A DNA stretch of 64,000 bases from the NCBI RefSeq assembly GCF_022482905.1, contig NZ_JAKVOI010000001.1, positions 558,001 through 622,000 of the forward strand, in the 5' to 3' direction. Below, piece after piece: positions 1 through 57,123 of the stretch (the first letter of the stretch is position 1; every line of letters begins with the position of its first letter). The stretch is from Clostridium sp. GTDB lineage: Bacteria; Bacillota; Clostridia; Clostridiales; Clostridiaceae. The notes below the pieces were generated by a model that searched no databases, was not told the origin of the DNA, and worked only from the letters and a program-made list of their open reading frames with translations. The translations under genes and the position numbers were made by a program.

Positions 1-99
1 AATATAATATATTGTAGGAAGACTTTTTGTATGGATTTATATACTAAAATATATCTTGGTACTTATGATAACAAATAAAACTTTATGGGAGTGAGATAT

Positions 100-1818
100 A
101 TGTTTTTAAAAGAATGTTTTAAAGCGATAAGTGAAAATGTCAATGAGGGTTTGATAGTAGTAGATAAAGGAGGAAGGCTGATTACAGCTAATACTAGGGC
201 GGAAGAATTGCTATCCATTGATTCTAAAAAAAGTATTGGAAAGCATATAGAAACTATTATTCCAGAAACCAAGTTAAACAGGGTGTTAAAAACCGGGAAA
301 AATGAACTCAACAAAAAATTTTTCACCAATGACAGGGAGTTTATGATCAGCAGAATTGCTATAGTTATTGAAGAAAAAGTATGTGGAGCAGTGGCAATTT
401 TTCAGGATATAACTGACCATAAGAAAATTCAGAAGAAGTTGGCAGATAATGAAATATATATAAATGTAATAAATACTATAATAAATACGCTTAACGAATG
501 TATAGTTTTAGTAGATGAGAATGGTATTATAACTATGATGAGCGAGGCATACAAAGAGTTTCTTGGTTGCACTTCCGATCCTGAAGGAAAAAATGTAAGC
601 GATGTAATAGAAAACACCAAGCTGCATGAGGTTGTAAAAAGTGGAAATGTAAAGATAGGAGATATTCAAAAAATAAATGGCAATAGGATGATTGCAGCAC
701 GTGTTCCAATTAAGGAGGATGGAAAGATTGTGGGAGCTGTAGGTAAAGTGATATTCAAGGATATTGGGGATTTTTATACTTTGAGCAAAAAATTGAATAG
801 TCTAGAAAAAGAAATTGAAACATACAAAAATGAACTTGGAAAAGAGAGAAAAGCAAGATATTCAATTGAAAATATTATAGGTAATTCTCCTAAAATACGT
901 GAAGTAAAATCGTTTGCATTAAAAGTAGCGAAAACTGATTCAAATGTACTTATAACAGGTGAAAGTGGTACTGGCAAGGAGCTCTTTGCCCATGGAATTC
1001 ATAATGCCAGTGGAAGGTATCTAGGGCCTTTTGTAGAGATAAATTGTGCAGCTATTCCATCTGAATTGTTTGAATCTGAATTGTTTGGATATGAGGAAGG
1101 AGCTTTTACTGGAGCTAAGAAAGGAGGTAAAAAGGGAAAATTCGAATTGGCCAATGGAGGAACAATATTTTTGGATGAAATAGGTGATATGCCAATGCAT
1201 ATGCAGGTTAAACTTCTTAGAGTAATTCAGAATAGGGAAATTGAGAGGGTAGGAGGCAATAAAATAGAAGAAATAAATGTAAGAATTATTGCAGCTACAA
1301 ATAAGAATCTTGAAGACAGCGTAAGAGAAGGAAAATTCAGAGAAGATCTTTATTATAGGCTTAATGTCATGAGAATAGTACTGCCTCCTTTGAGAGAAAG
1401 AAAAGAAGATATACCTGTTCTGGCCAACAATTTGAGGATTAAAATAGCAAATAAATTAGGAATATATGTAGAGGGAATATCAAGAGAGGCTATTAAATGT
1501 CTTATAAAATATGATTTCCCAGGTAATGTAAGAGAGCTTGAAAATATTATTGAAAGAGCTATTGATCTTCTTGATTCAGATATTATTATAAAAACGGAAC
1601 ACCTTCCGGAGAGACTTACCAATAAAAAAATAAAAAAGTATATAAAATATAATAATTGCAGCAAGCATTTAAAGAGCATAGTATCAGAAGTGGAGAAGGA
1701 GGTCATTTTAGAATGCCTAAACAAAACCAACTGGAATAAAAATAGAACAGCCAATATGCTTGGAATAAGCAGGGTTGGATTATATAAAAAGATAGAGGAA
1801 TACCATCTGAAAAATTGA
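100..1818 (+). CDS. PAS-domain sigma-54-dependent transcriptional activator
   Basis: Enhancer-binding activator for RNA polymerase carrying sigma-54. Two PAS-type sensor domains (about residues 5-105 and 120-225) precede an AAA+ core with Walker A GESGTGKE (about 288), the sigma-54-contacting GAFTGA loop (about 334), Walker B FLDEIGD (about 357) and a C-terminal Fis-type helix-turn-helix (NRTANMLGISRVGLYKKIEE). There is no receiver domain, so the signal is probably sensed by the PAS domains. ATG at 100 is chosen because GGGAG (87-91) is well placed for it; an in-frame ATG at 85 lies upstream of that SD. The next operon has a clear sigma-54 promoter, so that operon is the inferred target. The inducer is not known. 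Confidence 0.93.
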   Translation: MFLKECFKAISENVNEGLIVVDKGGRLITANTRAEELLSIDSKKSIGKHIETIIPETKLNRVLKTGKNELNKKFFTNDREFMISRIAIVIEEKVCGAVAIFQDITDHKKIQKKLADNEIYINVINTIINTLNECIVLVDENGIITMMSEAYKEFLGCTSDPEGKNVSDVIENTKLHEVVKSGNVKIGDIQKINGNRMIAARVPIKEDGKIVGAVGKVIFKDIGDFYTLSKKLNSLEKEIETYKNELGKERKARYSIENIIGNSPKIREVKSFALKVAKTDSNVLITGESGTGKELFAHGIHNASGRYLGPFVEINCAAIPSELFESELFGYEEGAFTGAKKGGKKGKFELANGGTIFLDEIGDMPMHMQVKLLRVIQNREIERVGGNKIEEINVRIIAATNKNLEDSVREGKFREDLYYRLNVMRIVLPPLRERKEDIPVLANNLRIKIANKLGIYVEGISREAIKCLIKYDFPGNVRELENIIERAIDLLDSDIIIKTEHLPERLTNKKIKKYIKYNNCSKHLKSIVSEVEKEVILECLNKTNWNKNRTANMLGISRVGLYKKIEEYHLKN

Positions 1819-1900
1819 GTTGATATTTTATAGTAAAGTATATGTACATGTAAGAAAAGTATACATTGGCTGTAATTTAGTGGATGGGATGTTTGTCATG

Positions 1901-1953
1901 AAAATACAAGAATCAAATGTAAATATAATATACACATTTGATTCTTGTATTTT
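1901..1953. repeat. Perfect 20-bp inverted repeat, 13-nt spacer
   Basis: The arms at 1901-1920 and 1934-1953 are exact reverse complements, starting with AAAA and ending with TTTT. It may be a bidirectional terminator of the activator gene, or the upstream activator site for the sigma-54 promoter, whose -24 element begins about 30 bp downstream. The sequence alone does not decide. Confidence 0.7.
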
Positions 1954-1983: not shown

Positions 1984-2000
1984 TTGGCATGCTATTTGCT
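1984..2000 (+). promoter_or_regulatory. Sigma-54 (-24/-12) promoter of the CoA-transferase operon
   Basis: TTGGCATGCTATTTGCT matches the consensus YTGGCACG-N4-TTGCW at nearly every position. The invariant GG (1986-1987) and GC (1998-1999) are exactly 12 bp apart. Predicted start of transcription is near 2011, about 44 nt before the CoA-transferase start codon. Confidence 0.88.
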
Positions 2001-2054
2001 ATAAATAGTACTGCAATTTAATTAATTTATTCATAGAAGGAGGATTGATTCAGC

Positions 2055-3647
2055 ATGAAGTCAAAAGTAATGTCTAGGGACAGGGCTATTGGGTTGATAA
2101 AAGATAATTATACTGTTGCAGTAGGAGGCTTCGTAGGGTGTGCATTTCCAGAATATATTATATCAGGAATAGAGGATAGATATTTAAAAGATCATTCACC
2201 ACACAATTTAACCTTGATGAATGCTGCAGGACAGGGAGATAGTGGCAGCAGAGGTTTGAATCATCTTGGACATGAAGGGCTGGTGAAGAGGGTAGTAGCT
2301 GGGCATTGGGCATTGGAGCCCAAAATCCAAAAATTGGCCATTGATAATAAAATAGAAGCCTACAATATACCTCAGGGAGTAATATCACAACTATATAGGG
2401 ACATTGCTGCAAAAAGGCCGGGAACAATAACTCATGTCGGTCTGCAGACTTTTATAGATCCTAGAATTGAAGGCGGCAAACTCAATGAAGTTACTAAAGA
2501 AGATATAGTGAAAATTATAAAAATAGATGGAAGAGAATACTTGTTCTATAAAGCTATACCGATAGATGTCGCAATTTTAAAAGCAACCTATGCGGATGCA
2601 TTTGGGAATGCAACTTTGGAAAAGGAAGCTGCTGTATTGGATGCAACCGCTATGGCACAAGCAGCTAAAAACTCTGGTGGAATAGTAATTGTTCAGGTCG
2701 ATAGTGTTGTAGCCGAAGGTTCTCTTGATCCTATGAAAGTCAAAATTCCCGGAATATATGTAGATGCAGTGGTTGTAGCTGATCCTAAAAATCGTATGCA
2801 GACATTTGAAGAATATTATAATCCTTCCTATTCAGGTGAAGTTAGGTTTTTATCTGATTCATTGCCGTCCATACCTTTAAATGAAAGAAAAGTTATAGCA
2901 AGGAGAGCAGCTATGGAGCTAGTTCCTAATTCAATAACCAATCTTGGAATTGGTATACCTGAAGGTATAGCTGCAGTTGCCAATGAGGAGGGAATTGCAG
3001 ATGAAATGACTTTGACTATAGAGTCCGGTGGAGTGGGGGGAGTGCCGGCAGGAGGACAAAGCTTTGGGGCATCGACCAATCCCCACAGCATACTTGATCA
3101 GGCAAGCCAGTTTGATTTTTATGATGGAGGTGGGCTTGATGTAGCGTTTCTAGGACTGGCACAGTGTGATAAAAGTGGAAATATAAATGTAAGCAAGTTC
3201 GGACCAAAGATAGCAGGGTGTGGAGGATTTATAAACATTACGCAAAATTCAAAAAAAGTTGTGTTCTGCGGAACTTTTAAGGCGGGAGGATTGAAAGTAA
3301 AAGTAGGAGATGGAAGACTTGATATAGAAAAAGAGGGAAAATTCAATAAATTTCTTGATGCTGTAGAACAGATAACATTCAGTGGAAAATATGCAAGGAC
3401 TATGGGACAGCAGGCCCTGTATATAACTGAGAGAGCAGTGTTTAGACTGGGCAAGGAAGGACTGGTTCTGGAAGAAATTGCACCGGGAATAGACTTGAAA
3501 AATGATGTATTGGCTCATATGAATTTTAAACCGGTAATATCTAAAAAATTAAAAACAATGGATGAAAGAATATTTAAAGAAGGGCTTGTAGGAATAGAAA
3601 TAGGAAAATCCTCCGGAGAATTTCCCGGGAAAGTGACAACTGCGTGA
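2055..3647 (+). CDS. Acyl-CoA:carboxylate CoA-transferase (Pct/YdiF type)
   Basis: Moves CoA between a short-chain acyl-CoA and a free carboxylate, activating an imported acid without spending ATP. The 530-residue chain is the single-polypeptide form of family I CoA-transferase, with both the alpha-like (VGGFVGCAFPEYI near the N-terminus) and beta-like halves. The catalytic glutamate is expected at Glu323 in the TIESGGVGG segment, and the GIGIPEGIA motif precedes it. A strong SD (GAAGGAGG) precedes ATG 2055. It is the first gene of the sigma-54 operon, followed by acyl-CoA dehydrogenase, EtfBA and a permease. The family covers propionate, acetate and 3-oxoacid transferases, so the real substrate is open. 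Confidence 0.93.
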   Translation: MKSKVMSRDRAIGLIKDNYTVAVGGFVGCAFPEYIISGIEDRYLKDHSPHNLTLMNAAGQGDSGSRGLNHLGHEGLVKRVVAGHWALEPKIQKLAIDNKIEAYNIPQGVISQLYRDIAAKRPGTITHVGLQTFIDPRIEGGKLNEVTKEDIVKIIKIDGREYLFYKAIPIDVAILKATYADAFGNATLEKEAAVLDATAMAQAAKNSGGIVIVQVDSVVAEGSLDPMKVKIPGIYVDAVVVADPKNRMQTFEEYYNPSYSGEVRFLSDSLPSIPLNERKVIARRAAMELVPNSITNLGIGIPEGIAAVANEEGIADEMTLTIESGGVGGVPAGGQSFGASTNPHSILDQASQFDFYDGGGLDVAFLGLAQCDKSGNINVSKFGPKIAGCGGFINITQNSKKVVFCGTFKAGGLKVKVGDGRLDIEKEGKFNKFLDAVEQITFSGKYARTMGQQALYITERAVFRLGKEGLVLEEIAPGIDLKNDVLAHMNFKPVISKKLKTMDERIFKEGLVGIEIGKSSGEFPGKVTTA

Positions 3648-3694
3648 TACAGTTCAAAAAATGTGCAATTAAAAGATATAAGGAGGTAAAATGA

Positions 3695-4834
3695 ATGGAT
3701 TTTACATTGACTAGGGAACAGGAACTTGTAAAACAAATGGTAAGAGAATTTACAGAAAATGAAGTCAAACCCCTGGCTGCCGAAATAGACGAGACAGAAA
3801 GGTTTCCAAGAGAAACAGTAGAAAAGATGGCCAGATACGGCATGATGGGGATACCTTTCCCGGAGGAATATGGCGGGGCAGGTGGAGACACCCTGTCTTA
3901 TATAATAGCTGTGGAAGAACTTTCCAAGGCCTGCGCCTCAACGGGAGTCATACTCTCGGCACACACATCGCTCTGTGCATCGCTTCTCGAACAGTTCGGC
4001 ACGGAAGAACAAAAACAGAAATATCTGGTTCCCCTTGCAAAGGGAGAAAAGATAGGTGCATTTGGACTTACAGAACCCAATGCAGGTACGGATGCATCCG
4101 GACAGCAGAGCCTGGCTGTACTTGAAGGAGACCATTATATACTGAACGGTCAGAAAATATTCATAACAAACGGTGGAGCTGCAGACATATTCGTGGTATT
4201 TGCAATGACTGACAGGAGCAAGGGAAATCATGGCATATCAGCATTCATACTTGAAAAGGGAATGCCGGGTTTTTCAATAGGAAAACTTGAAAACAAAATG
4301 GGAATAAGAGCATCATCAACTACGGAGCTGATATTCGAGGACTGTATAGTTCCAAAGGAGAATCTTGTAGGAAGAGAAGGAAAAGGTTTTGGAATAGCAA
4401 TGAAGACTCTTGATGGAGGAAGAATTGGTATAGCAGCACAGGCACTTGGAATAGCAGAAGGCGCCCTGGAGGAAGCAGTTGAATACATGAAAGAAAGAAA
4501 ACAGTTTGGAAGATCACTTAGCAAGTTCCAGGGGCTGGCATGGACTGTTGCCGATCTGGATACTGAAATACAGGCTGCAAAATACCTTGTGTACAAGGCA
4601 GCATTGAGCAAGGATGCACATGTATCCTATACAGTAGATGCAGCAAGAGCCAAGCTTATGGCAGCAAATGTTGCCATGGAGACTACAGCAAAGGTTGTAC
4701 AGCTCTTTGGAGGATATGGATATACAAAGGACTATCCAGTAGAGAGAATGATGAGAGATGCAAAGATAACTGAAATATATGAAGGAACCTCGGAAGTACA
4801 GAAAATGGTCATTTCAGGAAATATATTTAAATAG
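3695..4834 (+). CDS. Acyl-CoA dehydrogenase (short-chain/enoyl-CoA reductase type)
   Basis: FAD enzyme interconverting an acyl-CoA and its 2,3-enoyl-CoA, with electrons exchanged through ETF. 379 residues, the usual length for butyryl-CoA dehydrogenases. The FAD/substrate motif FGLTEPNAGTDA and the C-terminal signature QLFGGYGYTKDYPVERMMRD are present. The catalytic base is Glu363 in IYEGTSEVQ, the position used by short-chain enzymes. It lies 47 nt after the CoA-transferase and 12 nt before etfB. Without hydratase or thiolase genes in the operon, it is more likely to reduce an imported enoate as its CoA ester than to act in a full butyrate pathway. This is inference. Confidence 0.93.
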   Translation: MDFTLTREQELVKQMVREFTENEVKPLAAEIDETERFPRETVEKMARYGMMGIPFPEEYGGAGGDTLSYIIAVEELSKACASTGVILSAHTSLCASLLEQFGTEEQKQKYLVPLAKGEKIGAFGLTEPNAGTDASGQQSLAVLEGDHYILNGQKIFITNGGAADIFVVFAMTDRSKGNHGISAFILEKGMPGFSIGKLENKMGIRASSTTELIFEDCIVPKENLVGREGKGFGIAMKTLDGGRIGIAAQALGIAEGALEEAVEYMKERKQFGRSLSKFQGLAWTVADLDTEIQAAKYLVYKAALSKDAHVSYTVDAARAKLMAANVAMETTAKVVQLFGGYGYTKDYPVERMMRDAKITEIYEGTSEVQKMVISGNIFK

Positions 4835-4846
4835 GAGGAACGCCTA

Positions 4847-5626
4847 ATGAATATTGTTGTTTGTTTAAAACAGGTACCGGACACAAATGAAGTCAAAATA
4901 GATCCAAAGACAGGAACGCTTATAAGAGAAGGTGTTCCTTCGATAATAAATCCAGATGACAAGAATGCACTTGAGGAATCAATTGCAATTAAAGAAAAAA
5001 CAGGTGGAAAGGTTACAGTAATAAGCATGGGACCACCCCAGGCAGAGTCGGCACTGAGGGAAGCACTTGCAATGGGTGCAGACGAGGCAATACTCATATC
5101 TGACAGGGCTTTTGCAGGAGCAGATACCTGCGCCACAGCATATGCACTTTCAGGAGCACTCAGGAAACTGGACTACGATATAATTTTTGCAGGAAGACAG
5201 GCAATAGACGGAGATACCGCACAGGTTGGACCTGAAATAGCAGAATTTCTGGGAATACCGCAGATAACTTATGTAGAAAAGGTCGATGTGGATGGAAGTA
5301 CGGTTACAGTTAGAAAAGCATGGGAAGACGGGTATGAAACAGTGAAAGTCAATACGCCGGTACTGCTTACTGCTATAAAAGAATTGAACAATCCAAGATA
5401 TATGCATATGAAGAATATATTTAAAATCTTCAACAAGGAAGTAAAAGTGTGGAGCGCTGCCGATCTTGAAGTTGACAGGGAGCGTCTTGGACTTAAAGGT
5501 TCTCCTACGAAGGTAAAGAGATCAGCTACAAAAGAAGCAAGAGGGGCAGGAGAGATTGTCAACAAGCCGGTAAAAGAAGCAGCAGCATATGCAATTTCAA
5601 AATTAAGAGAAAAGCATGTTATTTAA
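4847..5626 (+). CDS. etfB: Electron transfer flavoprotein beta subunit
   Basis: Small ETF subunit that carries electrons to or from the preceding acyl-CoA dehydrogenase. The 259-residue protein starts MNIVVCLKQVPDT, the standard EtfB N-terminus, and contains GRQAIDGDTAQVGPEIAE. That segment resembles the nucleotide-binding stretch of ETFs from anaerobes that perform flavin-based electron bifurcation, but whether this one bifurcates cannot be settled by eye. SD AGGAGG precedes ATG by a short spacer. It is translated with etfA as a pair. Confidence 0.94.
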   Translation: MNIVVCLKQVPDTNEVKIDPKTGTLIREGVPSIINPDDKNALEESIAIKEKTGGKVTVISMGPPQAESALREALAMGADEAILISDRAFAGADTCATAYALSGALRKLDYDIIFAGRQAIDGDTAQVGPEIAEFLGIPQITYVEKVDVDGSTVTVRKAWEDGYETVKVNTPVLLTAIKELNNPRYMHMKNIFKIFNKEVKVWSAADLEVDRERLGLKGSPTKVKRSATKEARGAGEIVNKPVKEAAAYAISKLREKHVI

Positions 5627-5642
5627 TTGGGGGGGATTCGTA

Positions 5643-6647
5643 ATGAATATAGCAGACTACAAAGGTGTATGGGTATTTGCTGAACAGAGAGACGGTGAAC
5701 TTCAAAAAGTAGCTCTGGAATTATTGGGAAAAGGAAGAGAACTTGCAGATAAATTAAAGGTTGATCTGACTGCAGTACTTCTCGGAAGCGATATAGATGA
5801 TGCCGCAGAAGAATTGACTGCGTATGGAGCAGACAAGGTGCTGTATGCAGACAGTCCGCTATTGAAACACTATACTACGGACGGATATACAAAGGTAATT
5901 GCAGACCTTGTAGAAGAGAAAAAACCGGAAATAGTACTTATAGGTGCAAGCTTCATTGGAAGAGATCTGGGACCAAGACTGGCAGCCAAACTCGTTACGG
6001 GACTTACAGCCGATTGTACCGGACTCGACATAGATGCGGAGACGAACAATCTCATGATGACAAGACCGGCTTTTGGTGGGAATCTTATGGCAACAATAGT
6101 TTGCGGGGACCACAGACCGCAGATGTCAACAGTAAGGCCGGGGGTTTTCGATAAACTTGAGAAAGCCGATGTGAAGGCTGACAGGATAGAAAAGGTGAGC
6201 GCAGATGTTTCAGAGGACGACATAAGGATAAAGGTACAGGAAGTAGTGAAACTTGCGAAGGATGTAGTGGACATTGGAGAAGCAAAGGTAATTGTATCCG
6301 GAGGAAGAGGGCTTGGAAGCAAGGAAGGCTTTGAAGTTCTGAAGGAACTGGCAGATGTGCTTGAGGGAACTGTAGGTGGTTCCAGAGCTGCTATTGACAA
6401 TGGCTGGATAGACAAGGCATATCAAGTTGGACAAACCGGGAAGACGGTAAGGCCGGCACTCTATATAGCAGTTGGAATATCAGGAGCAATACAGCACCTG
6501 GCAGGCATGCAGGACAGTGGATATATTGTGGCTGTAAACAAGGATGAAAATGCTGCAATAATGAAGGTGGCTGACCTTGCCATTGTAGGAGACTATACCA
6601 AGGTCATACCTGAACTTGTAACTCAGATTAAAGTTTTGAATGAGTAA
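5643..6647 (+). CDS. etfA: Electron transfer flavoprotein alpha subunit
   Basis: Large ETF subunit, about 334 residues, holding the C-terminal FAD domain: SGGRGLGSKEGF, GGSRAAIDNGW, VGQTGKTVRP, ISGAIQHLAGM and the final VADLAIVGDYTKVIPEL. The start is placed at ATG 5643 because a run of G (5629-5635) forms its SD. An upstream in-frame start at 5616 would overlap etfB and lacks its own SD. There is no N-terminal ferredoxin-like extension of the sort found in Acetobacterium CarE. With EtfB it should link the acyl-CoA dehydrogenase to NADH and perhaps ferredoxin. Confidence 0.94.
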   Translation: MNIADYKGVWVFAEQRDGELQKVALELLGKGRELADKLKVDLTAVLLGSDIDDAAEELTAYGADKVLYADSPLLKHYTTDGYTKVIADLVEEKKPEIVLIGASFIGRDLGPRLAAKLVTGLTADCTGLDIDAETNNLMMTRPAFGGNLMATIVCGDHRPQMSTVRPGVFDKLEKADVKADRIEKVSADVSEDDIRIKVQEVVKLAKDVVDIGEAKVIVSGGRGLGSKEGFEVLKELADVLEGTVGGSRAAIDNGWIDKAYQVGQTGKTVRPALYIAVGISGAIQHLAGMQDSGYIVAVNKDENAAIMKVADLAIVGDYTKVIPELVTQIKVLNE

Positions 6648-6685
6648 TTGTTGTTGAATTTAATAAATTGATGGAGGTGTTGTCA

Positions 6686-8080
6686 ATGGGAGTCATAGGG
6701 ATTATACTGGCTTTAGGATTATTGATATTTATGGCTTATAAAGGATTTTCAGTTATATTCTTTGCACCAATCTTTGCACTGCTTGCTGCATTATTTTCAG
6801 GAATGGCACTTTTACCAACTTACACAGAAATATTTTTGCCTAATCTAGGCAGCTATGTAAAGACATATTTTCCATTTTTTCTGCTGGGGGCCGTATTTGG
6901 CAAGGCGATGGAGCAATCTGGTGCGGCCAAATCCATTGCCAAAACTATAGTGGAAAAACTTGGAAAAGACAAGGCTATATTTTCTGTAGTGCTGTCAGCT
7001 GCAATATTAACTTATGGAGGAGTAAGTCTATTTGTAGTAGCTTTTGCAGTATACCCTTTTGCAGCTTCTATTTTTAAGGAGGCAGATATTCCAAAGAGAC
7101 TTGTTCCAGCAACTATTGCTTTAGGCGCGTTTTCATTTACTATGGATTCACTTCCTGGTACACCGCAAATTCAGAATACCATACCTATGAAGTTCTTTAA
7201 TACTGATCTATATGCAGCGCCGATATTTGGAACACTTGGCTCATCAGTACTGCTTATAGGTGGGATATTCTATTTGGAATGGCGCAAGCGATGTGCTCAA
7301 GCTGCTGGAGAAGGATATGGAACAAATCATATTAATGAACCTGTAACTGGTGATGAAAAAAATATACCTTCCATGTGGAAAGCACTTATTCCATTGGTGA
7401 TGGTATTGGTGATAACCTTGATTTTGCAAAAAATAGTTTTCCCAAATTGGGATATAATTTCATGGGTTACTCAAAAACCTTATTCTATTCCTGAAGATGG
7501 ATTGGTTGGTTCAATGAATAACTGGGCGCTTATAATTGCACTTATAATTGGAACTATCATTGCATTTTGCATTAATCCTTCAAGTATGAAAAACAATATA
7601 GCAGCGACAATAAATGCCGGGGCGATAGGTTCACTCCTGGCTGTTATGAATACTGCATCAGAAGTAGGTTTTGGTAATGTTATAAAAACATTACCGGGAT
7701 TCAGAGTTATAGCTAATGCGTTGATAAATATAAACCCAAATGGAAGCCCGCTTTTATCAGAGGCAGTTAGCGTAAACGTTCTTGCGGGAGTTACGGGTTC
7801 GGCCTCAGGCGGTATGAGTATTGCGCTTGATATGTTTGCCAAAAAGTATTTACAATGGGCTGCAGAAACTGGTATATCACCTGAACTGCTTCACAGAGTG
7901 GCTTCTATGGCTTCCGGTGGTATGGACACATTACCTCATAATGGTGCAGTTATTACGCTTCTTGGAATTGCAGGCCTGACACATAAACAATCCTATAAGG
8001 ATATATTTGCTGTAACGTTGTTTAAAGCAGGAACATGTTTCTTGATGATATTTTTACAGGGCATTTTCCATTTTGTATAG
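6686..8080 (+). CDS. GntP-family carboxylate permease
   Basis: Integral membrane transporter, about 464 residues with roughly 12 hydrophobic segments. It has the GntP/citrate-type arrangement (AAILTYGGVSLFVVAFAVYP, then FSFTMDSLPGTPQIQNTIP in the first half, and AGVTGSASGGMSIALD and SGGMDTLPHNGAVITLLGIAG in the second). Relatives near fatty-acid and hydroxybutyrate genes are often named hydroxybutyrate permeases, without strong specificity data. ATG 6686 follows GGAGGTG; the in-frame TTG/ATG at 6668/6671 overlap that SD. As last gene of the sigma-54 operon it likely imports the acid that the CoA-transferase activates. Confidence 0.88.
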   Translation: MGVIGIILALGLLIFMAYKGFSVIFFAPIFALLAALFSGMALLPTYTEIFLPNLGSYVKTYFPFFLLGAVFGKAMEQSGAAKSIAKTIVEKLGKDKAIFSVVLSAAILTYGGVSLFVVAFAVYPFAASIFKEADIPKRLVPATIALGAFSFTMDSLPGTPQIQNTIPMKFFNTDLYAAPIFGTLGSSVLLIGGIFYLEWRKRCAQAAGEGYGTNHINEPVTGDEKNIPSMWKALIPLVMVLVITLILQKIVFPNWDIISWVTQKPYSIPEDGLVGSMNNWALIIALIIGTIIAFCINPSSMKNNIAATINAGAIGSLLAVMNTASEVGFGNVIKTLPGFRVIANALININPNGSPLLSEAVSVNVLAGVTGSASGGMSIALDMFAKKYLQWAAETGISPELLHRVASMASGGMDTLPHNGAVITLLGIAGLTHKQSYKDIFAVTLFKAGTCFLMIFLQGIFHFV

Positions 8081-8094
8081 ATAAGTACTTTGAC

Positions 8095-8139
8095 AAATAG
8101 TCTAAGGTAACCTTGAGAGGATATCTTAGACTATTTTTA
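8095..8139 (+). terminator. Rho-independent terminator after the permease
   Basis: The arms AAATAGTCTAAG (8095-8106) and CTTAGACTATTT (8125-8136) form a 12-bp stem followed by T residues. It closes the sigma-54 operon. Confidence 0.85.
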
Positions 8140-8468
8140 TAAATTCTTAATGGTATATTTAACAATATCGATATAAGGTATTATAACAGACAAACAAATC
8201 GATATAGTACAGATAATATGAGATTATCTGGAAAACGTTAGCATACAAATACTTTCCAATATTGTGCACAAAGTATAACAAGATCATTACACAATTTGTT
8301 AATAGTTTTGCGGAGTAAATATTTTTATAATTTATATAATTGTTCTAAAAATCGAAGAATTTATATGTACCGAATTGAAAATGAAAGTTAAGATTAAGTT
8401 AATTATGGGTATGAAAATATTTTGTCAAAAAATTATTAATACAGAGTAAAAAAATATAATAATACAGA
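8140..8468. other. Long AT-rich intergenic region upstream of rseC-rnf
   Basis: About 330 bases without a credible ORF. ATCGATAT occurs twice (near 8167 and 8197) and there are several short AT dyads, but I could not recognise a defined operator or riboswitch. It probably holds regulatory sites for the rnf operon. Confidence 0.4.
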
Positions 8469-8496
8469 ATGACAATTTATCGATTTGTGATATAAT
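8469..8496 (+). promoter_or_regulatory. Sigma-A promoter of rseC-rnfCDGEAB
   Basis: ATGACA (8469-8474), a 16-nt spacer and TATAAT (8491-8496), with an extended -10 TGA just before it. Transcription should start near 8503, giving a leader of about 60 nt before rseC. Confidence 0.7.
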
Positions 8497-8562
8497 TAGA
8501 ATTGATAAATTAGATATAAGGCTAAATTTGAAAACAATGACTGATTTATGGAGGTAATATAA

Positions 8563-8976
8563 ATGAAAAATGAATCTTCAGGAGTTGTGATTGAAGTAAA
8601 AGATGGAATTGCTAAAGTTAGGACTAGCAATCACAGTGACTGTGAAAACTGTGGTGCATGTCCTGGCTCGGCTGCTTCTGTAGTCAATGCAAGAAATCCT
8701 GTTGGGGCTAAACCTGGACAACATGTTACATTTGAAATAGAAGAAACAAATATGCTAAAAGCAGCTTTTGTTGTGTATATACTACCCCTTATTGGTATCT
8801 TTATCGGTGCTCTTATTGGAACATTGATATATGGGAGAGTTGGTGGTTCACTAAAGGCCTTTCAAATAGGTGGTGCAGTTGTACTATTTGCTTTATCGCT
8901 TTTATATGTAAAAATTTTTGATAAATCTGCAGGTAAAAACGATTCTATAAAACCAGTTATTAAAAGCATACTTTAA
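8563..8976 (+). CDS. rseC: RseC/MucC-family positive regulator protein of the rnf operon
   Basis: Small membrane protein of 137 residues. A soluble N-terminal part carries a cysteine cluster (CENCGACPG, about residues 27-35), followed by two transmembrane helices (about 67-85 and 100-118) and a short charged tail, the normal RseC layout. In acetogenic clostridia an rseC gene precedes the rnf genes and has been implicated in rnf expression; the same position here supports that role. SD GGAGG precedes ATG 8563. The cysteines suggest a redox-sensing or Fe-S role, which is inference. Confidence 0.88.
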   Translation: MKNESSGVVIEVKDGIAKVRTSNHSDCENCGACPGSAASVVNARNPVGAKPGQHVTFEIEETNMLKAAFVVYILPLIGIFIGALIGTLIYGRVGGSLKAFQIGGAVVLFALSLLYVKIFDKSAGKNDSIKPVIKSIL

Positions 8977-9031
8977 TTTTATCTATAAAACTGTTTTATA
9001 TTTCTATAATTGAATATAAAAATAATTAATA

Positions 9032-9061
9032 TTTTGTTACAAGGTTTTCCTTGTAACAAAA
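9032..9061 (+). promoter_or_regulatory. Stem-loop between rseC and rnfC
   Basis: Perfect 13-bp stem (9032-9044 with 9049-9061) and a TTTT loop, ending about 10 nt before the rnfC SD. The downstream U tract is weak, so it may be an RNA processing or stabilising hairpin or a leaky terminator that sets the rseC:rnfC ratio. Confidence 0.7.
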
Positions 9062-9080
9062 TTTATTGAAAGAGGTGTTA

Positions 9081-10406
9081 ATGTTGATAAAAAGTTTTAA
9101 AGGCGGTGTACATCCGGATGGAAGCAAAAAATATACAGCGAATAAATCTATTGAAATAGCACCTATTCCTGATAAAGTATTTATACCCGTCAGACAGCAT
9201 ATTGGAGCTCCAGCATCTCCTGTTGTAAAAAAAGGGGATTTAGTTAAAAAAGGACAGCTGATTGCTCAAAGTGGTGGATTTGTATCGAGCAATATACATG
9301 CTTCCATTTCTGGAGAAGTAGTAGATGTAGGCATGTATCCACATCCTGGCTTTGGAATGTGCCAGACGATAGTCATTAAAAGTGATGGAAAAGATGAATG
9401 GGTGGAAGGGATTCCGCTATTACGAAAGTTTGAAGATTTAAGTGAAAGTGAAATTATGGATATTATAAAGGAAAACGGTATTGTGGGAATGGGTGGTGCT
9501 ACATTTCCGACACATGTAAAATTATCACCGCCCAAGGATAAAACTGTAGATACTTTTATCTTGAATGCAGCTGAATGTGAACCATATTTAACTGCAGATC
9601 ATAGGGCAATGCTGGAATATGATGACAAAATAGTAAGTGGAATAAAAATAGTAATGAAGGTTTTAAAACCTCAAAAATGTTATGTGGGAATAGAGGATAA
9701 CAAACCAGATGCCATAGAACATATGAAAAAAGCATTTTCAGGCACAGATGTCGAAGTGGTGGGTCTTCCTACCAAGTATCCTCAGGGGGCTGAAAAAATG
9801 CTCATAAAAGTTCTGACTGGAAAAGAGGTTCCATCAGGTGGACTTCCTGTAGATGTAGGAGTGGTAGTACAAAATGTGGGAACAGTTATAGCTATAAGTG
9901 ATGCTGTTGAAAGAGGAATTCCATTGATTCAGAGAATAACAACTGTAACTGGTAGAGCTGTAAAAGAACCCAAAAATCTTCTGCTTAGAATAGGTACAAC
10001 CTTTAGGGACGTTATTGAATTCTGTGGAGGATTTTCAGAAGATCCTGCAAAATTAATAATGGGTGGACCTATGATGGGAGCTGCCCAGTCGAATCTTGAC
10101 ATTCCTGTAATAAAGGGAACTTCAGGAATACTCGCATTGACTAGAAGTGATATCAACAATGGTACACAATCTCCCTGCATTAGATGCGGACGATGCATAG
10201 AAGCCTGTCCAATGGGCCTCAATCCAAGTATGCTGAGTATACTTGGTGAAAATGATTTATACAGGGAAGCCAAGGAAGATTATAATCTTTTGGATTGTGT
10301 CGAATGTGGAAGTTGTGTATATACTTGCCCGGCCAAGAGAAATATTGTTCAATACATTAAATATTCCAAGGCTAAGAATGCAGCTGAAGCTAAAGCTGCT
10401 AAATGA
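9081..10406 (+). CDS. rnfC: Rnf complex subunit C
   Basis: Peripheral NADH-binding subunit of the membrane ferredoxin:NAD oxidoreductase, which pumps H+ or Na+. About 441 residues. It has an N-terminal barrel/biotinyl-like region, a nucleotide/FMN-binding GMGGATFPTHVK segment, and two C-terminal [4Fe-4S] motifs (CIRCGRCIEACP and CVECGSCVYTCP). ATG 9081 follows AGAGGTG; an in-frame TTG at 9066 lies before this SD. It is the first rnf gene of the cluster in the usual clostridial order C-D-G-E-A-B. Confidence 0.96.
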   Translation: MLIKSFKGGVHPDGSKKYTANKSIEIAPIPDKVFIPVRQHIGAPASPVVKKGDLVKKGQLIAQSGGFVSSNIHASISGEVVDVGMYPHPGFGMCQTIVIKSDGKDEWVEGIPLLRKFEDLSESEIMDIIKENGIVGMGGATFPTHVKLSPPKDKTVDTFILNAAECEPYLTADHRAMLEYDDKIVSGIKIVMKVLKPQKCYVGIEDNKPDAIEHMKKAFSGTDVEVVGLPTKYPQGAEKMLIKVLTGKEVPSGGLPVDVGVVVQNVGTVIAISDAVERGIPLIQRITTVTGRAVKEPKNLLLRIGTTFRDVIEFCGGFSEDPAKLIMGGPMMGAAQSNLDIPVIKGTSGILALTRSDINNGTQSPCIRCGRCIEACPMGLNPSMLSILGENDLYREAKEDYNLLDCVECGSCVYTCPAKRNIVQYIKYSKAKNAAEAKAAK

Positions 10407-10425
10407 TGGAAGAGAGGTTATAAAA

Positions 10426-11424
10426 ATGGCAGAGACAGAATTAGTTAAAAAAGAAGTTTTTACTGTTTCAACATCACCACATATAAGATGTGAAGAATCT
10501 ATATCAAAAATAATGTGGAGTGTAAATTTGGCTCTTGCTCCGGCAGCCATATTTTCAATTTATAATTTTGGAGTACCTGCATTAAAAATAATTGTAGTAA
10601 GTATAATTGCAGCTGTCGTGTCAGAAATATTCGTAGAAAAAGTAAGACATAAACCAATAAGCATAAAAGATGGAAGTGCATTCTTGACGGGACTTTTGCT
10701 TGCCATGTGTGTACCGCCTACGCTTCCGCCTTATATGATAGCAATAGGTTCGTTTATAGCGATAGCAATAGCAAAGCATTCAATGGGTGGACTTGGGTAT
10801 AACATATTTAACCCGGCACATGTAGGAAGAGCTGCTCTTATGGCTTCATGGCCGGCTGCAATGACCCTCTGGAGTAAGATGACAACAAGCGTAGATGTTG
10901 TATCTTCTGCAACTCCACTTGGAATATTGAAGATGGAAGGATACTCAAAGCTTATAGAAACTTTTGGAGGTGCTGGAAATCTATACAAGGCTTTATTTAT
11001 AGGAACCAGAAATGGAAGTATAGGTGAAACTTCTACCATATTACTTATTTTAGGCGGACTATATCTCATATACAAACATTATATAAATTGGCAGATTCCA
11101 GTAACCATGATTGCTACTGTAGGAATATTGACCTGGATATTTGGACCTAATGGTGCATTTACAGGTGATCCAATATTTCATATGATGGCTGGAGGACTTA
11201 TAATAGGGGCGTTTTTCATGGCAACGGATATGGTTACAATACCTATAACAGTAAAAGGACAAGTTATTTTTGCAATTGGTGCTGGACTTATAACTACACT
11301 TATAAGGTTAAAAGGTGGTTATCCAGAAGGAGTTTGTTACTCTATACTTTTGATGAATGCTGTTACACCATTGATTGACCGTTTGATTCAGCCGACTAAA
11401 TTTGGTTCAGAGGCGAGGAGGTAA
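10426..11424 (+). CDS. rnfD: Rnf complex subunit D
   Basis: Integral membrane subunit (about 332 residues) with covalently bound FMN. The flavinylation threonine is expected at Thr163 in the VSSATPLG segment. Multiple membrane helices lie either side (for example PAAIFSIYNFGVPALKIIVV and the C-terminal VIFAIGAGLITTLIRL). The start is ATG 10426, preceded by GAGAGG; the frame stays open upstream into rnfC, but that part overlaps the rnfC Fe-S region and is not used. Flavinylation requires an ApbE-type transferase, which is not in this window. Confidence 0.95.
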   Translation: MAETELVKKEVFTVSTSPHIRCEESISKIMWSVNLALAPAAIFSIYNFGVPALKIIVVSIIAAVVSEIFVEKVRHKPISIKDGSAFLTGLLLAMCVPPTLPPYMIAIGSFIAIAIAKHSMGGLGYNIFNPAHVGRAALMASWPAAMTLWSKMTTSVDVVSSATPLGILKMEGYSKLIETFGGAGNLYKALFIGTRNGSIGETSTILLILGGLYLIYKHYINWQIPVTMIATVGILTWIFGPNGAFTGDPIFHMMAGGLIIGAFFMATDMVTIPITVKGQVIFAIGAGLITTLIRLKGGYPEGVCYSILLMNAVTPLIDRLIQPTKFGSEARR

Positions 11425-11428
11425 TTTT

Positions 11429-11986
11429 ATGGCAAAAGAGAAAGATAAATTTTCTATTTTTAATATTGCCAAAAATTTGGCAGGAGCCTGTTTTATATCA
11501 GGGGCCGTAATTGCAGCTACTTATTATTTCACTGCTCCGGTAGCTGCAAAGAAGCAGATACAGATAAAAAATGATTCCATGAAGGAACTGGTAAAGGATG
11601 CAGATAGCTTTAAAACCGTAAGTGGAAAGAAAGAATGGTATTCCGCTGTTAAAGGAAGCAAGACTATTGCCTATGTAATTCCAGCATCAAGTAAAGGTTA
11701 TGGTGGAGCTATAAGTTTATTGGTAGCTGTTACACCCGATGGTAAAGTAATAGATTTCAGCATTGTATCACATAATGAAACGCCTGGATTGGGTGCAAAC
11801 GCAGCTGAACCGTCATTTAGAGGACAGTTTGAAGGTAAAGCGGCTAAAAATCTTACGGTTACAAAGGATAAGTCGGATAAAGATGATATTCAGGCTATGA
11901 CGGGAGCAACTATAACTTCAAGGGCTGTTACAAAGGGAGTCAAAGAAGCTGTAGTTGAGGTTACTAAATATACAGGAGGTAAATAA
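11429..11986 (+). CDS. rnfG: Rnf complex subunit G
   Basis: Membrane-anchored subunit of about 185 residues. One N-terminal transmembrane helix (LAGACFISGAVIAATYYF) is followed by an extracytoplasmic FMN-binding domain. The flavinylation motif is TGATITSRAV near the C-terminus, where the threonine of S/T-GAT-hydrophobic-T/S carries FMN. ATG 11429 follows GAGGAGG. The gene begins 5 nt after rnfD and ends 2 nt before rnfE, so translation is likely coupled. Confidence 0.95.
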   Translation: MAKEKDKFSIFNIAKNLAGACFISGAVIAATYYFTAPVAAKKQIQIKNDSMKELVKDADSFKTVSGKKEWYSAVKGSKTIAYVIPASSKGYGGAISLLVAVTPDGKVIDFSIVSHNETPGLGANAAEPSFRGQFEGKAAKNLTVTKDKSDKDDIQAMTGATITSRAVTKGVKEAVVEVTKYTGGK

Positions 11987-11988
11987 AT

Positions 11989-12639
11989 ATGAAAGATAGT
12001 GTTAAAAAATACACTGGCAGAGAATTATGGGGCATATTTGAAAAAGGAATAGTTATGGAAAACCCTATCTTTGTACTTGCACTCAGCCTTTGTCCGGCAC
12101 TTGCAGTAACAGGTGAAGCAGCTACTGCACTTACAATGGGACTTTCTGTAATGTTTGTAATAACTGCCAATAATACGGTTGTTTCCATAATTAGAAATTT
12201 TGTAAATGCAAAGGTCCGTGTACCGGTTTATATAACTTCTATAGCAACGATAGTTACGATGGTTGAACTTGTACTTCAGGCATTTGCACCACTTTTATAT
12301 AAAAAATTAGGTATATATCTGGCATTGGTTGTTGTATTCGCCATAATACTTGCGCGTGCAGAAGTATTTGCTTCAAAGAACTCAATATTTCCATCATTCC
12401 TCGACGGTCTTGGCATGGGAACTGGATTTTGCTTTGCACTTGTCATAATCGGAATTATACGTGAGCTGTTCGGTATGGGTTCTATATTTGGATTTAAAGT
12501 ATTGGGAGCATGGTATAATCCTGCGCTTATAATGATTCTGCCGCCTGGTGGTTTTATACTTATAGGATACCTTGTTGCAATAGTCAAAGTTCACAATCAG
12601 CGTCAGGAAAAGTTAAAGATAAGTAGGGGTGAATTGTAA
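11989..12639 (+). CDS. rnfE: Rnf complex subunit E
   Basis: Integral membrane subunit of 216 residues with about six helices, homologous to NqrD. Typical segments are ENPIFVLALSLCPALAVT near the N-terminus and LGMGTGFCFALVIIGIIRELFG later. RnfE and RnfA form the central membrane core with an intramembrane Fe-S centre in related complexes. Its SD (GGAGG) lies within the end of rnfG. Its stop overlaps the rnfA start by one base (TAATG). Confidence 0.96.
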   Translation: MKDSVKKYTGRELWGIFEKGIVMENPIFVLALSLCPALAVTGEAATALTMGLSVMFVITANNTVVSIIRNFVNAKVRVPVYITSIATIVTMVELVLQAFAPLLYKKLGIYLALVVVFAIILARAEVFASKNSIFPSFLDGLGMGTGFCFALVIIGIIRELFGMGSIFGFKVLGAWYNPALIMILPPGGFILIGYLVAIVKVHNQRQEKLKISRGEL

Positions 12640-13220
12640 TGGCATATCTTACATTATTTATAAGTTCGGTACTTATAAACAATTTTGTTTTGACAAGATT
12701 TCTTGGACTCTGTATTTTCTTCGGAGTTTCAAAAAATTTAAATGCTTCCATTGGAATGGGAATGGCTGTTACTTCGGTTTTGACACTTAGTTCAATATTT
12801 GCGTGGATCATATATCATTTTGTACTTCTGCCTTTTCATCTAACATTCTTGACTACAGTTGTATTTGTACTTCTGATTGCAAGCTTTGTACAGCTGCTTG
12901 AAATGATAATAAAGAAGCAGGCACCGGCATTATACAATATGTGGGGAATTTATTTACTGCTGATTGCAACAAATTGTATTGTACTTTCGGTACCTCTTTT
13001 AAATGTGGATTCAAACTATTCATTTTTAATGAGTGTTGTAAATGCTATCGGTGGTGGTATGGGTTTTGCTCTTGCCATAATACTTATGGCAAGTTTAAGA
13101 GAAAAATTGAGACTGGCGGATGTTCCTAAGCCTCTTGAAGGACTTGGAATTGCTTTTATTCTTGCAGGAATGCTGGCACTGGCTTTTCTTGGTTTCTCAG
13201 GTATGATACCAGTATCATAA
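12639..13220 (+). CDS. rnfA: Rnf complex subunit A
   Basis: Integral membrane subunit of 193 residues, homologous to NqrE, with six predicted helices. Recognisable segments are INNFVLTRFLGLCIFFGVS at the start and AIGGGMGFALAIILMASLREKL in the second half. The cysteine in LGLCIFFG corresponds to the conserved intramembrane Cys of the family. The start codon overlaps the rnfE stop. Confidence 0.96.
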   Translation: MAYLTLFISSVLINNFVLTRFLGLCIFFGVSKNLNASIGMGMAVTSVLTLSSIFAWIIYHFVLLPFHLTFLTTVVFVLLIASFVQLLEMIIKKQAPALYNMWGIYLLLIATNCIVLSVPLLNVDSNYSFLMSVVNAIGGGMGFALAIILMASLREKLRLADVPKPLEGLGIAFILAGMLALAFLGFSGMIPVS

Positions 13221-13246
13221 AGCTCTATAGAAAGGAGATTTTTTAA

Positions 13247-14104
13247 ATGTTAAGTATAGCAATTATGGTTCTCGTTGTAATGACGGCTACAGGTATAATA
13301 TTTGGAGTTGTACTTGGATATGCGAACAAGAGATTTGCCATTGAGTCAAATCCTCTTATAGATTTAGTTGAAGAAGAACTCCCCAAAGGTCAGTGCGGAG
13401 GATGTGGATATGCTGGATGTCGTGCCTATGCAGAGGCAGTAGTTCTGGACAAGGATGTGCCGCCGAATCTCTGTATTCCGGGAAAGGCAGCTGTAGCGGA
13501 AGCCGTAGCTAAGTTAACTGGAAAAGCGGCTGCAGAGGTTGAACCCAAAGTTGCACATGTTATGTGCAATGGAAATTTTCAAAATGCCACTAGAAAATAT
13601 AACTATGCAGGCGTAAAAGACTGTGCTGCGGCAAATCTTCTTCAGGGAGGCCCGAAATCATGTGAGTATGGATGTATAGGTTTCGGCACCTGTGTCAAGA
13701 ATTGTCCTTTCGGCGCAATGATGATGGGATCAAATGGTTTACCATTAATAGATACGGATGTATGTGTTGGCTGTGGAAAATGTGAGAGTGTATGTCCTAA
13801 GAGTGTAATTTCACTTATACCTTTGGGAGCAAAAGTTGAAGTTGAGTGTAACTCCAAGGATAAAGGTGCCAAAGTACGTAAAAATTGTAAGGTTGGCTGT
13901 CTGGGATGTGGTATGTGTGCAAGAAATTGTGATCACAATGCAATCAAGGTTGTAGATAATCTGGCTGTAGTTGATACGCATATTTGCATAAATGAGTGTT
14001 CGGAGGAGAAATGTCTTACCAAATGTCCAACTGGTGCAATCAAGTATATACTTAAGGATTTAAATGAACATGAAAAGAGCAAACAGGAAGCAGCAGCTAA
14101 TTAA
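13247..14104 (+). CDS. rnfB: Rnf complex subunit B (polyferredoxin)
   Basis: Ferredoxin-accepting subunit of 285 residues. An N-terminal membrane helix (IAIMVLVVMTATGIIFGVVLGY) precedes a Fe-S domain with CGGCGYAGC (about residues 50-58) and Cys near 75. Then come several 4Fe-4S clusters: CIGFGTCVKNCP, CVGCGKCESVCP, CLGCGMCARNC and CINECSEEKCLTKCP. It passes electrons from reduced ferredoxin towards NAD while ions are pumped. The downstream hairpin terminates the operon. The many cysteine codons make the identification secure. Confidence 0.96.
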   Translation: MLSIAIMVLVVMTATGIIFGVVLGYANKRFAIESNPLIDLVEEELPKGQCGGCGYAGCRAYAEAVVLDKDVPPNLCIPGKAAVAEAVAKLTGKAAAEVEPKVAHVMCNGNFQNATRKYNYAGVKDCAAANLLQGGPKSCEYGCIGFGTCVKNCPFGAMMMGSNGLPLIDTDVCVGCGKCESVCPKSVISLIPLGAKVEVECNSKDKGAKVRKNCKVGCLGCGMCARNCDHNAIKVVDNLAVVDTHICINECSEEKCLTKCPTGAIKYILKDLNEHEKSKQEAAAN

Positions 14105-42295: not shown

Positions 42296-42568
42296 GTACT
42301 ATGGCGTATCTTTCAATGGTAAGATGATAACAAACTTTTTGCATAGAGTACAGAAATTTCTATGTAAGACTCTTAACAGACGAAGTGATAAGAAAAGTTA
42401 CTGTTGGGATGGATATACAGAAATGCTAAAGTATTATCCGCTAGCAAGACCAAAGATATATTTTAAACTGTTTTAACTGTGAATGTTATTATGAGGAGCC
42501 GTATGCGGGAAAGCCGCACGTACGGATTCTGTGAGGGGCTTACATTGTGAGGTGTAAGTCTACTCGAC
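42296..42568 (+). mobile_element. 5'-truncated group II intron (3' 273 nt)
   Basis: These 273 bases match 50375-50647, the 3' end of the full group II intron, with only about two differences seen (for example near 42399 and 42405). They contain the end of the maturase gene, domain V (GAGCCGTATGCGGG and its pairing strand) and domain VI. The copy lacks the 5' part and the reverse transcriptase domains, so it is inactive. The very high identity indicates a recent event. Confidence 0.9.
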
Positions 42569-57018: not shown

Positions 57019-57123
57019 AAGTGATCATGTGACTGGCGGAAATGGAGTTTACCATGGGAAGCATGATTGAATAGAAGTTGTATCGACCGCCTGGGTAATT
57101 AATAATTTACCCGGGTTTTTTTG
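57019..57123 (+). promoter_or_regulatory. ZTP (pfl) riboswitch
   Basis: Conserved core: ATCATGTGACTGGCGGA, then GGAGTTTACCATGGGAAGCA and, after a variable loop, CCGCCTGGGTA. Next, the strand pairing GGGTAATTA...TTTACCC is followed by GGGTTTTTTTG, forming the terminator (about 57092-57123). ZTP/ZMP riboswitches switch on purine and one-carbon genes when AICAR derivatives build up. ZTP binding should prevent termination and allow expression of the formyltransferase that consumes ZMP. Confidence 0.93.

Follow-up and report, generated by a model that had tools for sequence, protein, structure and literature searches.

Five genes near the start of a 64,000-nucleotide stretch of Clostridium sp. DNA, hereafter the window (bases 558001-622000 of a 3,567,184-bp single-contig genome), encode a CoA-transferase, a butyryl-CoA dehydrogenase (Bcd), the electron-transferring flavoprotein subunits EtfB and EtfA, and a GntP-family permease (Table 1). 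The open reading frame (ORF) list and Pfam matches place all five on the plus strand with short gaps between them, behind a gene for an enhancer-binding protein (EBP) and an exact match to the sigma-54 promoter pattern. A preliminary description of the same DNA had recognized this row of genes, correctly, and had read it as an operon akin to caffeate respiration, which would import a 2-enoate, reduce it, and gain energy through the neighboring Rnf complex. We favor, with moderate confidence, a sigma-54/EBP-controlled regulon for the fermentation of (R)-3-hydroxybutyrate, in which a recently duplicated bcd-etfB-etfA cassette appears to have been captured.

Table 1. Features of the operon and its surroundings (window positions unless a genome position is given)
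Feature	Position	Strand	Remarks
MaoC/PhaJ-type (R)-hydratase, 140 aa	G000:C1:557494-557916 (own genome)		Stops 84 bp short of the window; PF01575 above cut-off
EBP, PAS-PAS-AAA+-Fis type, predicted operon activator	85..1818	+	Pfam; possibly starts at 100, like that of C. tyrobutyricum
Putative upstream activator site (UAS) TGTACATGTAAG	1843..1854		10/12 to TTTACATGTAAA; shared with related regions
AT-rich near-perfect palindrome, probably the EBP gene terminator	1901..1953		26-nt arms, 92% complementary
Sigma-54 promoter TTGGCATGCTATTTGCT	1984..2000	+	Exact -24/-12 match TGGCATGCTATTTGCT at 1985-2000
CoA-transferase, propionate CoA-transferase/YdiF type, 530 aa	2055..3647	+	ESGGVGG motif at residue 323; 2ahu (YdiF), 518 bits
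Duplicated bcd-etfB-etfA cassette, between CoA-transferase and permease	3666..6669	+	Right end somewhere around 6662-6669 (AATAA common to target)
Butyryl-CoA dehydrogenase (crotonyl-CoA reductase)	3695..4834	+	Protein identical to second copy
EtfB, bifurcating type by similarity	4847..5626	+	Similarity
EtfA without ferredoxin domain	5643..6647	+	334 aa, 2 Cys
GntP-family permease, predicted 3-hydroxybutyrate importer	6686..8080	+	ATG at 6686; Pfam PF02447
rseC-rnfCDGEAB	8563-14104		Follows GntP permease
Group II intron matches, three	42494-42568, 48813-49035, 50573-50647		Rfam
ZMP/ZTP riboswitch	57019-57103		Rfam

A hydratase partner and a putative shared activator site

The preliminary description had found no hydratase with the operon, yet a MaoC-type gene stands just outside the window, under a sigma-54 site of its own located 74 bp 5' of the maoC start. 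The best match of its product in the Protein Data Bank (PDB) is 5cpg, an (R)-specific enoyl-CoA hydratase (127 bits), followed by 3ir3, 3-hydroxyacyl-thioester dehydratase 2 (98 bits), and 1iq6, another (R)-specific enoyl-CoA hydratase (85 bits); the alignments to 5cpg and 1iq6 display the D-x-N-P-x-H motif. The protein is thus of the (R)-specific hydratase type, its stereospecificity being a prediction.

Of 154 relatives, the best 80 make up the set of related loci. L016 likewise has a sigma-54 site belonging to MaoC, and L009 a looser one, while none was found 5' of MaoC in L003, L005, L006, L007, L021, and L027, in some of which the gene may sit in a longer operon. The sigma-54 site 5' of the CoA-transferase gene recurs in 18 of the 32 loci examined. 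The upstream regions scanned begin at the first possible start codon, such that sites inside over-long ORFs, perhaps in L011 or L017, would be missed, and L033 offered no upstream sequence. Taken alone, the single match in the window is within chance (0.23 expected; 18 of 100 shuffles contain one or more). Across the genome, the pattern matches 28 times versus 0 times for the reversed control. The exact -24/-12 site, the EBP gene upstream, this genome-wide contrast, and the retention of the site in relatives together support the sigma-54 control proposed earlier.

A second shared element, TTTACATGTAAA, was first spotted by eye 5' of four genes, namely, the CoA-transferase and MaoC genes of the window genome and their counterparts in L001 and L003. 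We defined a putative UAS as an ACATGT core with at least 10 of 12 matches to TTTACATGTAAA, for which the expectation, derived from 213 kb of the same genome, is about 0.013 per 450-bp region. Such a site is present in all eight regions that have the window's own EBP or one at least 57% identical to it (window CoA-transferase, own MaoC, L001, L002, L003, L004, L021, and L027), four of the eight being hold-outs. Both criteria together were met 5' of the CoA-transferase gene in none of the 10 loci whose EBP is 44-53% identical (L005, L006, L007, L009, L010, L011, L013, L016, L017, and L020); in L152, 11 of 12 positions match but the ACATGT core is missing. The putative UAS precedes the sigma-54 site by 123 nt at maoC and by 142 nt at the CoA-transferase gene, and none of the 26 remaining genomic sigma-54 sites has one within 300 nt. 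Because only these two of the 28 sites carry it, we predict that one EBP serves both transcripts by binding the element, whose role as an activator site we infer.

The 53-bp palindrome upstream of the promoter was also considered as an activator site and rejected. Palindromes at a similar position in L003 and L004 differ from it in sequence, as judged by eye, making a terminator of the EBP gene more likely.

Gene neighborhoods in relatives

The CoA-transferase neighborhood could be parsed in 71 of the 80 related loci, the script having failed to frame the CoA-transferase gene in the other nine (L022, L025, L053, L055, L057, L065, L066, L067, and L069). A GntP permease lies at most two genes away from the CoA-transferase in 26 of the 71 loci. 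Within a stretch reaching from five genes before to six genes after the CoA-transferase, potential C4 partners (MaoC, short-chain dehydrogenase/reductase [SDR], thiolase, Hbd, Crt, dehydrogenase, or ETF) occur in 22 of these 26 loci, versus 20 of the 45 without GntP.

The composition of the partner set varies. L021 (Maledivibacter halophilus) and L027 (McBI.64) have the content of the window genome in another order, MaoC-Bcd-EtfB-EtfA-EBP-CoA-transferase-GntP. L011, L013, and L017 read thiolase-EBP-CoA-transferase-GntP-SDR, with no hydratase or dehydrogenase within the examined stretch, and in L016 (Geosporobacter) MaoC, thiolase, and SDR all accompany the operon. Four SDRs were scanned and fit FabG-type models best, the acetoacetyl-CoA reductase and 3-hydroxybutyrate dehydrogenase models scoring below cut-off. 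Two individual loci show further variation: in Clostridium lacusfryxellense (L006, 3105-9820) a tandem CoA-transferase-GntP-CoA-transferase-GntP row is followed by MaoC, with a sigma-54 site for each CoA-transferase, and in Clostridium sp. OS1-26 (L004, 5989-7700) the EBP frame is broken into two ORFs of 348 and 208 aa.

Duplication and probable relocation of the bcd-etfB-etfA cassette

Over 3,004 bp, window positions 3666-6669 are 99.43% identical to a second stretch of the same genome (G000:C1:3321549-3324552; L097 13550-16553). The repeated cassette begins in the spacer 5' of bcd and stops 22 bp past the etfA stop codon. Its 17 differences comprise 13 synonymous changes, three non-synonymous changes in EtfB or EtfA, and one intergenic change at position 6667, possibly part of the target. 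Used as a query against the genome, the dehydrogenase gave five matches, of which two show 100% protein identity. The second copy has its own upstream region, in which 134 bp are 80% identical to the region 5' of the crt gene of that locus. It lies downstream of another CoA-transferase row, MarR-GntP2-crt-CoAT2-ACD2 (L097 7398-13181; G000:C1:3315397-3321180); the 20-kb stretch around that row contains no exact sigma-54 site.

The ancestral place of the cassette emerges from a comparison of 13 genomes of the genus, the window's own included. Some acyl-CoA dehydrogenase exists in all 13. This Bcd is found at 73-93% identity in nine of the 12 other genomes, and the remaining three offer nothing closer than 40-41%. 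In eight of those nine relatives the gene stands in the butyrate operon, ordered rex-crt-bcd-etfB-etfA-hbd, where the first gene is one that we take to be rex from its sequence; in the ninth, G001, it is located elsewhere. The window genome, which has two matches to ECH_1 (the crotonase family) and two copies of this bcd, keeps rex, crt, and hbd in that order with bcd-etfB-etfA absent between crt and hbd. The 107-bp spacer left there has its own ribosome-binding site and, by eye, a 3' part like the etfA-hbd spacer of C. tyrobutyricum. Because the window dehydrogenase is orthologous to the crt-bcd-etfBA-hbd enzyme and is missing between the organism's own crt and hbd, it is this organism's counterpart of the housekeeping butyryl-CoA dehydrogenase.

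C. tyrobutyricum also shows what the operon may have looked like before the insertion. Its EBP, CoA-transferase, and GntP permease, 80%, 78%, and 88% identical to those of the window, are consecutive in L001 and enclose no cassette; across the 13 genomes, a GntP permease more than 32% identical to that of the window was found only in these two organisms. Just 25 bp separate the C. tyrobutyricum CoA-transferase stop from the GntP start, and this spacer, AATAAATTGTATGGAGG, matches the window sequence to the right of the insert (AATAAATTGATGGAGG), AATAA being common to the cassette end. The bcd-etf cluster of C. tyrobutyricum itself, in the account given by PMC10397141, forms butyryl-CoA and has the ordinary arrangement. 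Given the 99.43% duplicate and the uninterrupted C. tyrobutyricum operon, the window operon is best described as a recent mosaic, that is, an older EBP-CoA-transferase-GntP operon with an inserted copy of bcd-etfBA.

Pairs of near-identical 3-kb repeats are well known to cause mis-joins, and the assembled contig constitutes the only data. An assembly artefact nevertheless strikes us as exceedingly improbable: the copies differ at 17 positions, their boundaries fall within the spacers 5' of bcd and 3' of etfA amid unrelated flanks, and the crt-hbd spacer retains its ribosome-binding site and its resemblance to the C. tyrobutyricum etfA-hbd spacer. Polarizing the differences between the copies against five relatives identified no older copy, with derived changes more frequent in bcd of the second copy and some at the 3' end of the window copy. 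The junction sequences that were inspected showed no mobile element.

Other rearranged or related genes were encountered along the way. The bcd-etfB-etfA genes of G001 that lie outside the crt-hbd order (L115, G001:C11:40000-56000, 6863-9821) are near genes of clusters c48 and c47. In C. tyrobutyricum these genes stand on either side of an etfB-etfA-FAD oxidoreductase-acyl-CoA dehydrogenase cluster (L107), and G001 may thus represent another relocation. The window genome has a similar etfB-etfA-oxidoreductase-acyl-CoA dehydrogenase cluster (L098 5876-10379; G000:C1:1677875-1682378), whose dehydrogenase is 66% identical. A 566-aa acyl-CoA dehydrogenase with a C-terminal part matching the FAD-binding part of EtfA (L099 7817-9517) is present in 10 of the 13 genus genomes.

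Kinship of the reductase and its flavoprotein

Two details of the preliminary description hold at the protein level: the catalytic motif of the dehydrogenase, IYEGTSE, is present at residue 361, and EtfA, with 334 aa and two cysteines, is without a ferredoxin extension. The kinship to caffeate and acrylate systems that it drew from the gene layout is not supported. The dehydrogenase scores 578 bits against Bcd of the solved Bcd-Etf complex 5ol2 versus 377 bits against CarC, and it is the ortholog of the Bcd found in the butyrate operons of the genus. EtfA does score highest with CarE (400 versus 356 bits), the closest among solved Etfs; its alignment starts at CarE residue 65, and the N-terminal 2[4Fe-4S] ferredoxin domain is lacking. 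The Car operon includes CarB, an acyl-CoA synthetase, and no domain of this type was detected by Pfam in the seven proteins scanned. Among NCBIfam models, AcrC, AcrB, and AcrA rank first or second for the three proteins, with every score below its cut-off (555.8/640, 282.2/475, and 437.2/600). The dehydrogenase and EtfB also fall far below cut-off with PRK12341 and PRK12342, which we take to be the YdiO and YdiQ models. Membership in the caffeate and acrylate families was accordingly rejected, and the reductase is, by its sequence relationships, an ordinary crotonyl-CoA reductase, neither CarC- nor acryloyl-CoA-type. Both flavoprotein subunits score higher with 5ol2, 6fah, and 4kpu than with 1efv and 1efp, and orthology makes bifurcation, in the form of NADH-dependent ferredoxin reduction with crotonyl-CoA, probable for this Bcd-EtfAB.

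The adjacent Rnf cluster

An Rnf cluster does lie just downstream, as the preliminary description had noted; a conserved link between it and the operon is not supported. No convincing RnfC match occurs in the 80 related loci, the sole match, in L077, covering 52 residues at 38 bits. In four relatives (L120-L123) the upstream neighbor of rseC belongs to another family, c33, directly adjacent in three and separated by two short ORFs in L123. Because the c33 gene and those behind it stand just before the MaoC gene in the window genome, the MaoC-EBP-CoA-transferase-Bcd-EtfBA-GntP island sits between genes that are neighbors elsewhere. The 3' portion of the GntP-rseC gap is homologous to the sequence 5' of rseC in relatives, positions 8412-8510 being 84% identical to that of cel8. 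We thus rejected Rnf as a part of the operon unit and regard the adjacency as lineage-specific. A sigma-70-type match (11/12) is located at 8469-8496, in a scan that yielded 6 sites versus 8.3 in shuffles. Read-through from GntP into Rnf is possible; the scan found no terminator-like site on the plus strand between GntP and rseC.

Substrate and proposed mechanism

Much of the functional outline drawn earlier is retained here: sigma-54/EBP control, import, CoA transfer, enoyl-CoA reduction, and probable bifurcation. The part that we revise is the 2-enoate. With a MaoC hydratase encoded next door, and with thiolase and SDR in its stead in some relatives, (R)-3-hydroxybutyrate is the more likely import; its CoA ester would serve an (R)-hydratase as well as an (R)-type SDR acting ahead of thiolase.

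In the proposed route, the GntP-family permease would import (R)-3-hydroxybutyrate and the CoA-transferase would activate it with CoA taken from butyryl-CoA or acetyl-CoA. The PhaJ/MaoC hydratase would convert (R)-3-hydroxybutyryl-CoA to crotonyl-CoA, which Bcd-EtfAB, working in the reductive direction, would turn into butyryl-CoA with NADH while reducing ferredoxin alongside. The butyryl-CoA would give its CoA to the next 3-hydroxybutyrate, and the reduced ferredoxin could be used by the Rnf complex of the cell. Redox balance would come from the oxidation of some 3-hydroxybutyrate to acetate, in the manner of Ilyobacter, for which PMC10096456 gives the conversion of two 3-hydroxybutyrate to two acetate and one butyrate. 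PMC5861303 treats as established both bifurcation by Bcd-EtfAB and the C. kluyveri crotonate pathway.

Several observations weigh against this scheme. The specificity of GntP and CoA-transferase is not readable from their sequences alone. CoA-transferase-GntP loci without a C4 partner in the examined stretch exist, namely, L001 (C. tyrobutyricum), L010, L019, and L040. In C. luticellarii, a 77% identical CoA-transferase adjoins a TIGR00366-like transporter (below cut-off) and a 3-hydroxyacyl-CoA dehydrogenase-like gene, with no GntP. The two loci that share the full window content, L021 and L027, are among those with no sigma-54 site found 5' of MaoC, and the linked MaoC of cel8 is only 38% identical to that of the window genome. 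Finally, Nie et al. (2019; PMC6615313) place cotY-gntT-bcd-etfAB under butyrate/butanol synthesis.

Import and reduction of crotonate, a 2-enoate, would follow the original proposal. Permease and CoA-transferase would yield crotonyl-CoA, of which Bcd-EtfAB would reduce one part while Crt, Hbd, and thiolase oxidize the rest. The housekeeping nature of the crotonyl-CoA reductase is in keeping with this, as are the crt, hbd, and thiolase genes elsewhere in the window genome and the fermentation of crotonate by C. kluyveri through the same chemistry (PMC5861303, in its treatment of that pathway). We nonetheless consider crotonate unlikely: an (R)-specific hydratase-type partner with shared sites would be superfluous for turning crotonate into crotonyl-CoA, and L011, L013, and L017 have SDR and thiolase with no hydratase near the operon. 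In genome G003, which we take to be C. kluyveri, neither this CoA-transferase nor the permease found a match.

Uptake and re-activation of butyrate or valerate in chain-elongating or solvent-forming metabolism, with Bcd-EtfAB and MaoC boosting acyl-chain formation, would agree with the label that PMC6615313 attaches to the XcgR cotY-gntT-bcd-etfAB and CrbR operons. An importer, however, is odd for a product acid, and thiolase-SDR variants in lineages such as Salipaludibacillus would be left unexplained; such lineages are not known to ferment to butyrate. On balance, we judge it improbable. Conversion of 3-hydroxypropionate or acrylate to propionate by the same gene set draws on a CoA-transferase of the Pct/YdiF type, presumably kin to Pct, and on the rank of the three Acr models. 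Their cut-offs are missed, the dehydrogenase is orthologous to the Bcd of the genus, and the thiolase and SDR partners of relatives are unfit for C3 substrates, all of which render such a C3 route very improbable.

Relation to known systems and implications

The E. coli ydiF-ydiO-ydiQRST layout combines a CoA-transferase, a dehydrogenase, and an ETF, and among solved structures the window CoA-transferase comes closest to YdiF; the dehydrogenase and EtfB of the window depart from it, as their PRK scores indicate. With CarABCDE of Acetobacterium woodii, the window system shares a CoA transferase, a reductase, an ETF, and probably the same bifurcation principle. It differs in its distance from CarC, in the missing EtfA ferredoxin domain and CarB, and in a predicted C4 aliphatic substrate. 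To the Bcd-EtfAB of butyrate clostridia, ancestrally crt-bcd-etfBA-hbd, it is orthologous, whereas its cassette is relocated and duplicated, a sigma-54 promoter preceding one of the copies. A precedent for such control over the use of (R)-3-hydroxybutyrate exists in Pseudomonas aeruginosa, where HbcR (PA2005), a PAS-type EBP, acts with RpoN, as cited in PMC13390443 and PMC8694187; the pathway there is described as oxidative, with a dehydrogenase, and the likeness is one of description rather than of locus.

The closest parallels are the XcgR (cotY-gntT-bcd-etfAB) and CrbR regulons of Clostridium and Geosporobacter, the signal of CrbR being given as unknown in the account of these regulons in PMC6615313. 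In gene content, on which alone the comparison is based, they likewise unite sigma-54 and an EBP with CoA-transferase, GntP permease, Bcd, and EtfAB (and maoC for CrbR), if cot and gntT are taken as CoA-transferase and GntP permease. They differ in being filed as butyrate/butanol synthesis, and the window bcd-etfBA is a recent duplicate. The layout of sigma-54 CoA-transferase-GntP-Bcd-Etf regulons is thus not new. New, as far as we have seen, are the duplication and relocation of the cassette, the MaoC partner with its putative shared activator site, and the 3-hydroxybutyrate reading; nothing on GntP-linked 3-hydroxybutyrate systems in clostridia was found in the open-licence literature. Whether the bifurcating crotonyl-CoA reductase cassette moves as a unit, we consider evenly balanced. 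In that event, bcd-etfBA would have departed from its ancestral crt-hbd operon and been copied, and the recent insertion of one of its two present copies into a sigma-54 operon for (R)-3-hydroxybutyrate would have re-created the gene content that genomes of the Maledivibacter type arrange differently. The clostridial sigma-54 CoA-transferase-GntP regulons now labeled butyrate/butanol synthesis would then be regulons for the fermentation of 3-hydroxybutyrate, the monomer of polyhydroxybutyrate (PHB).

For a type of clostridial sigma-54 regulon already described in print, the proposal supplies an inducer and a substrate that can be tested. A central energy-conserving enzyme would have been rewired to a new promoter by a recent cassette insertion, in a setting where the ancestral site, the empty target, and both copies can be compared. 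The proposal also suggests a way in which anaerobes could draw energy from the PHB monomer, PHB being a bioplastic that is natural as well as commercial.

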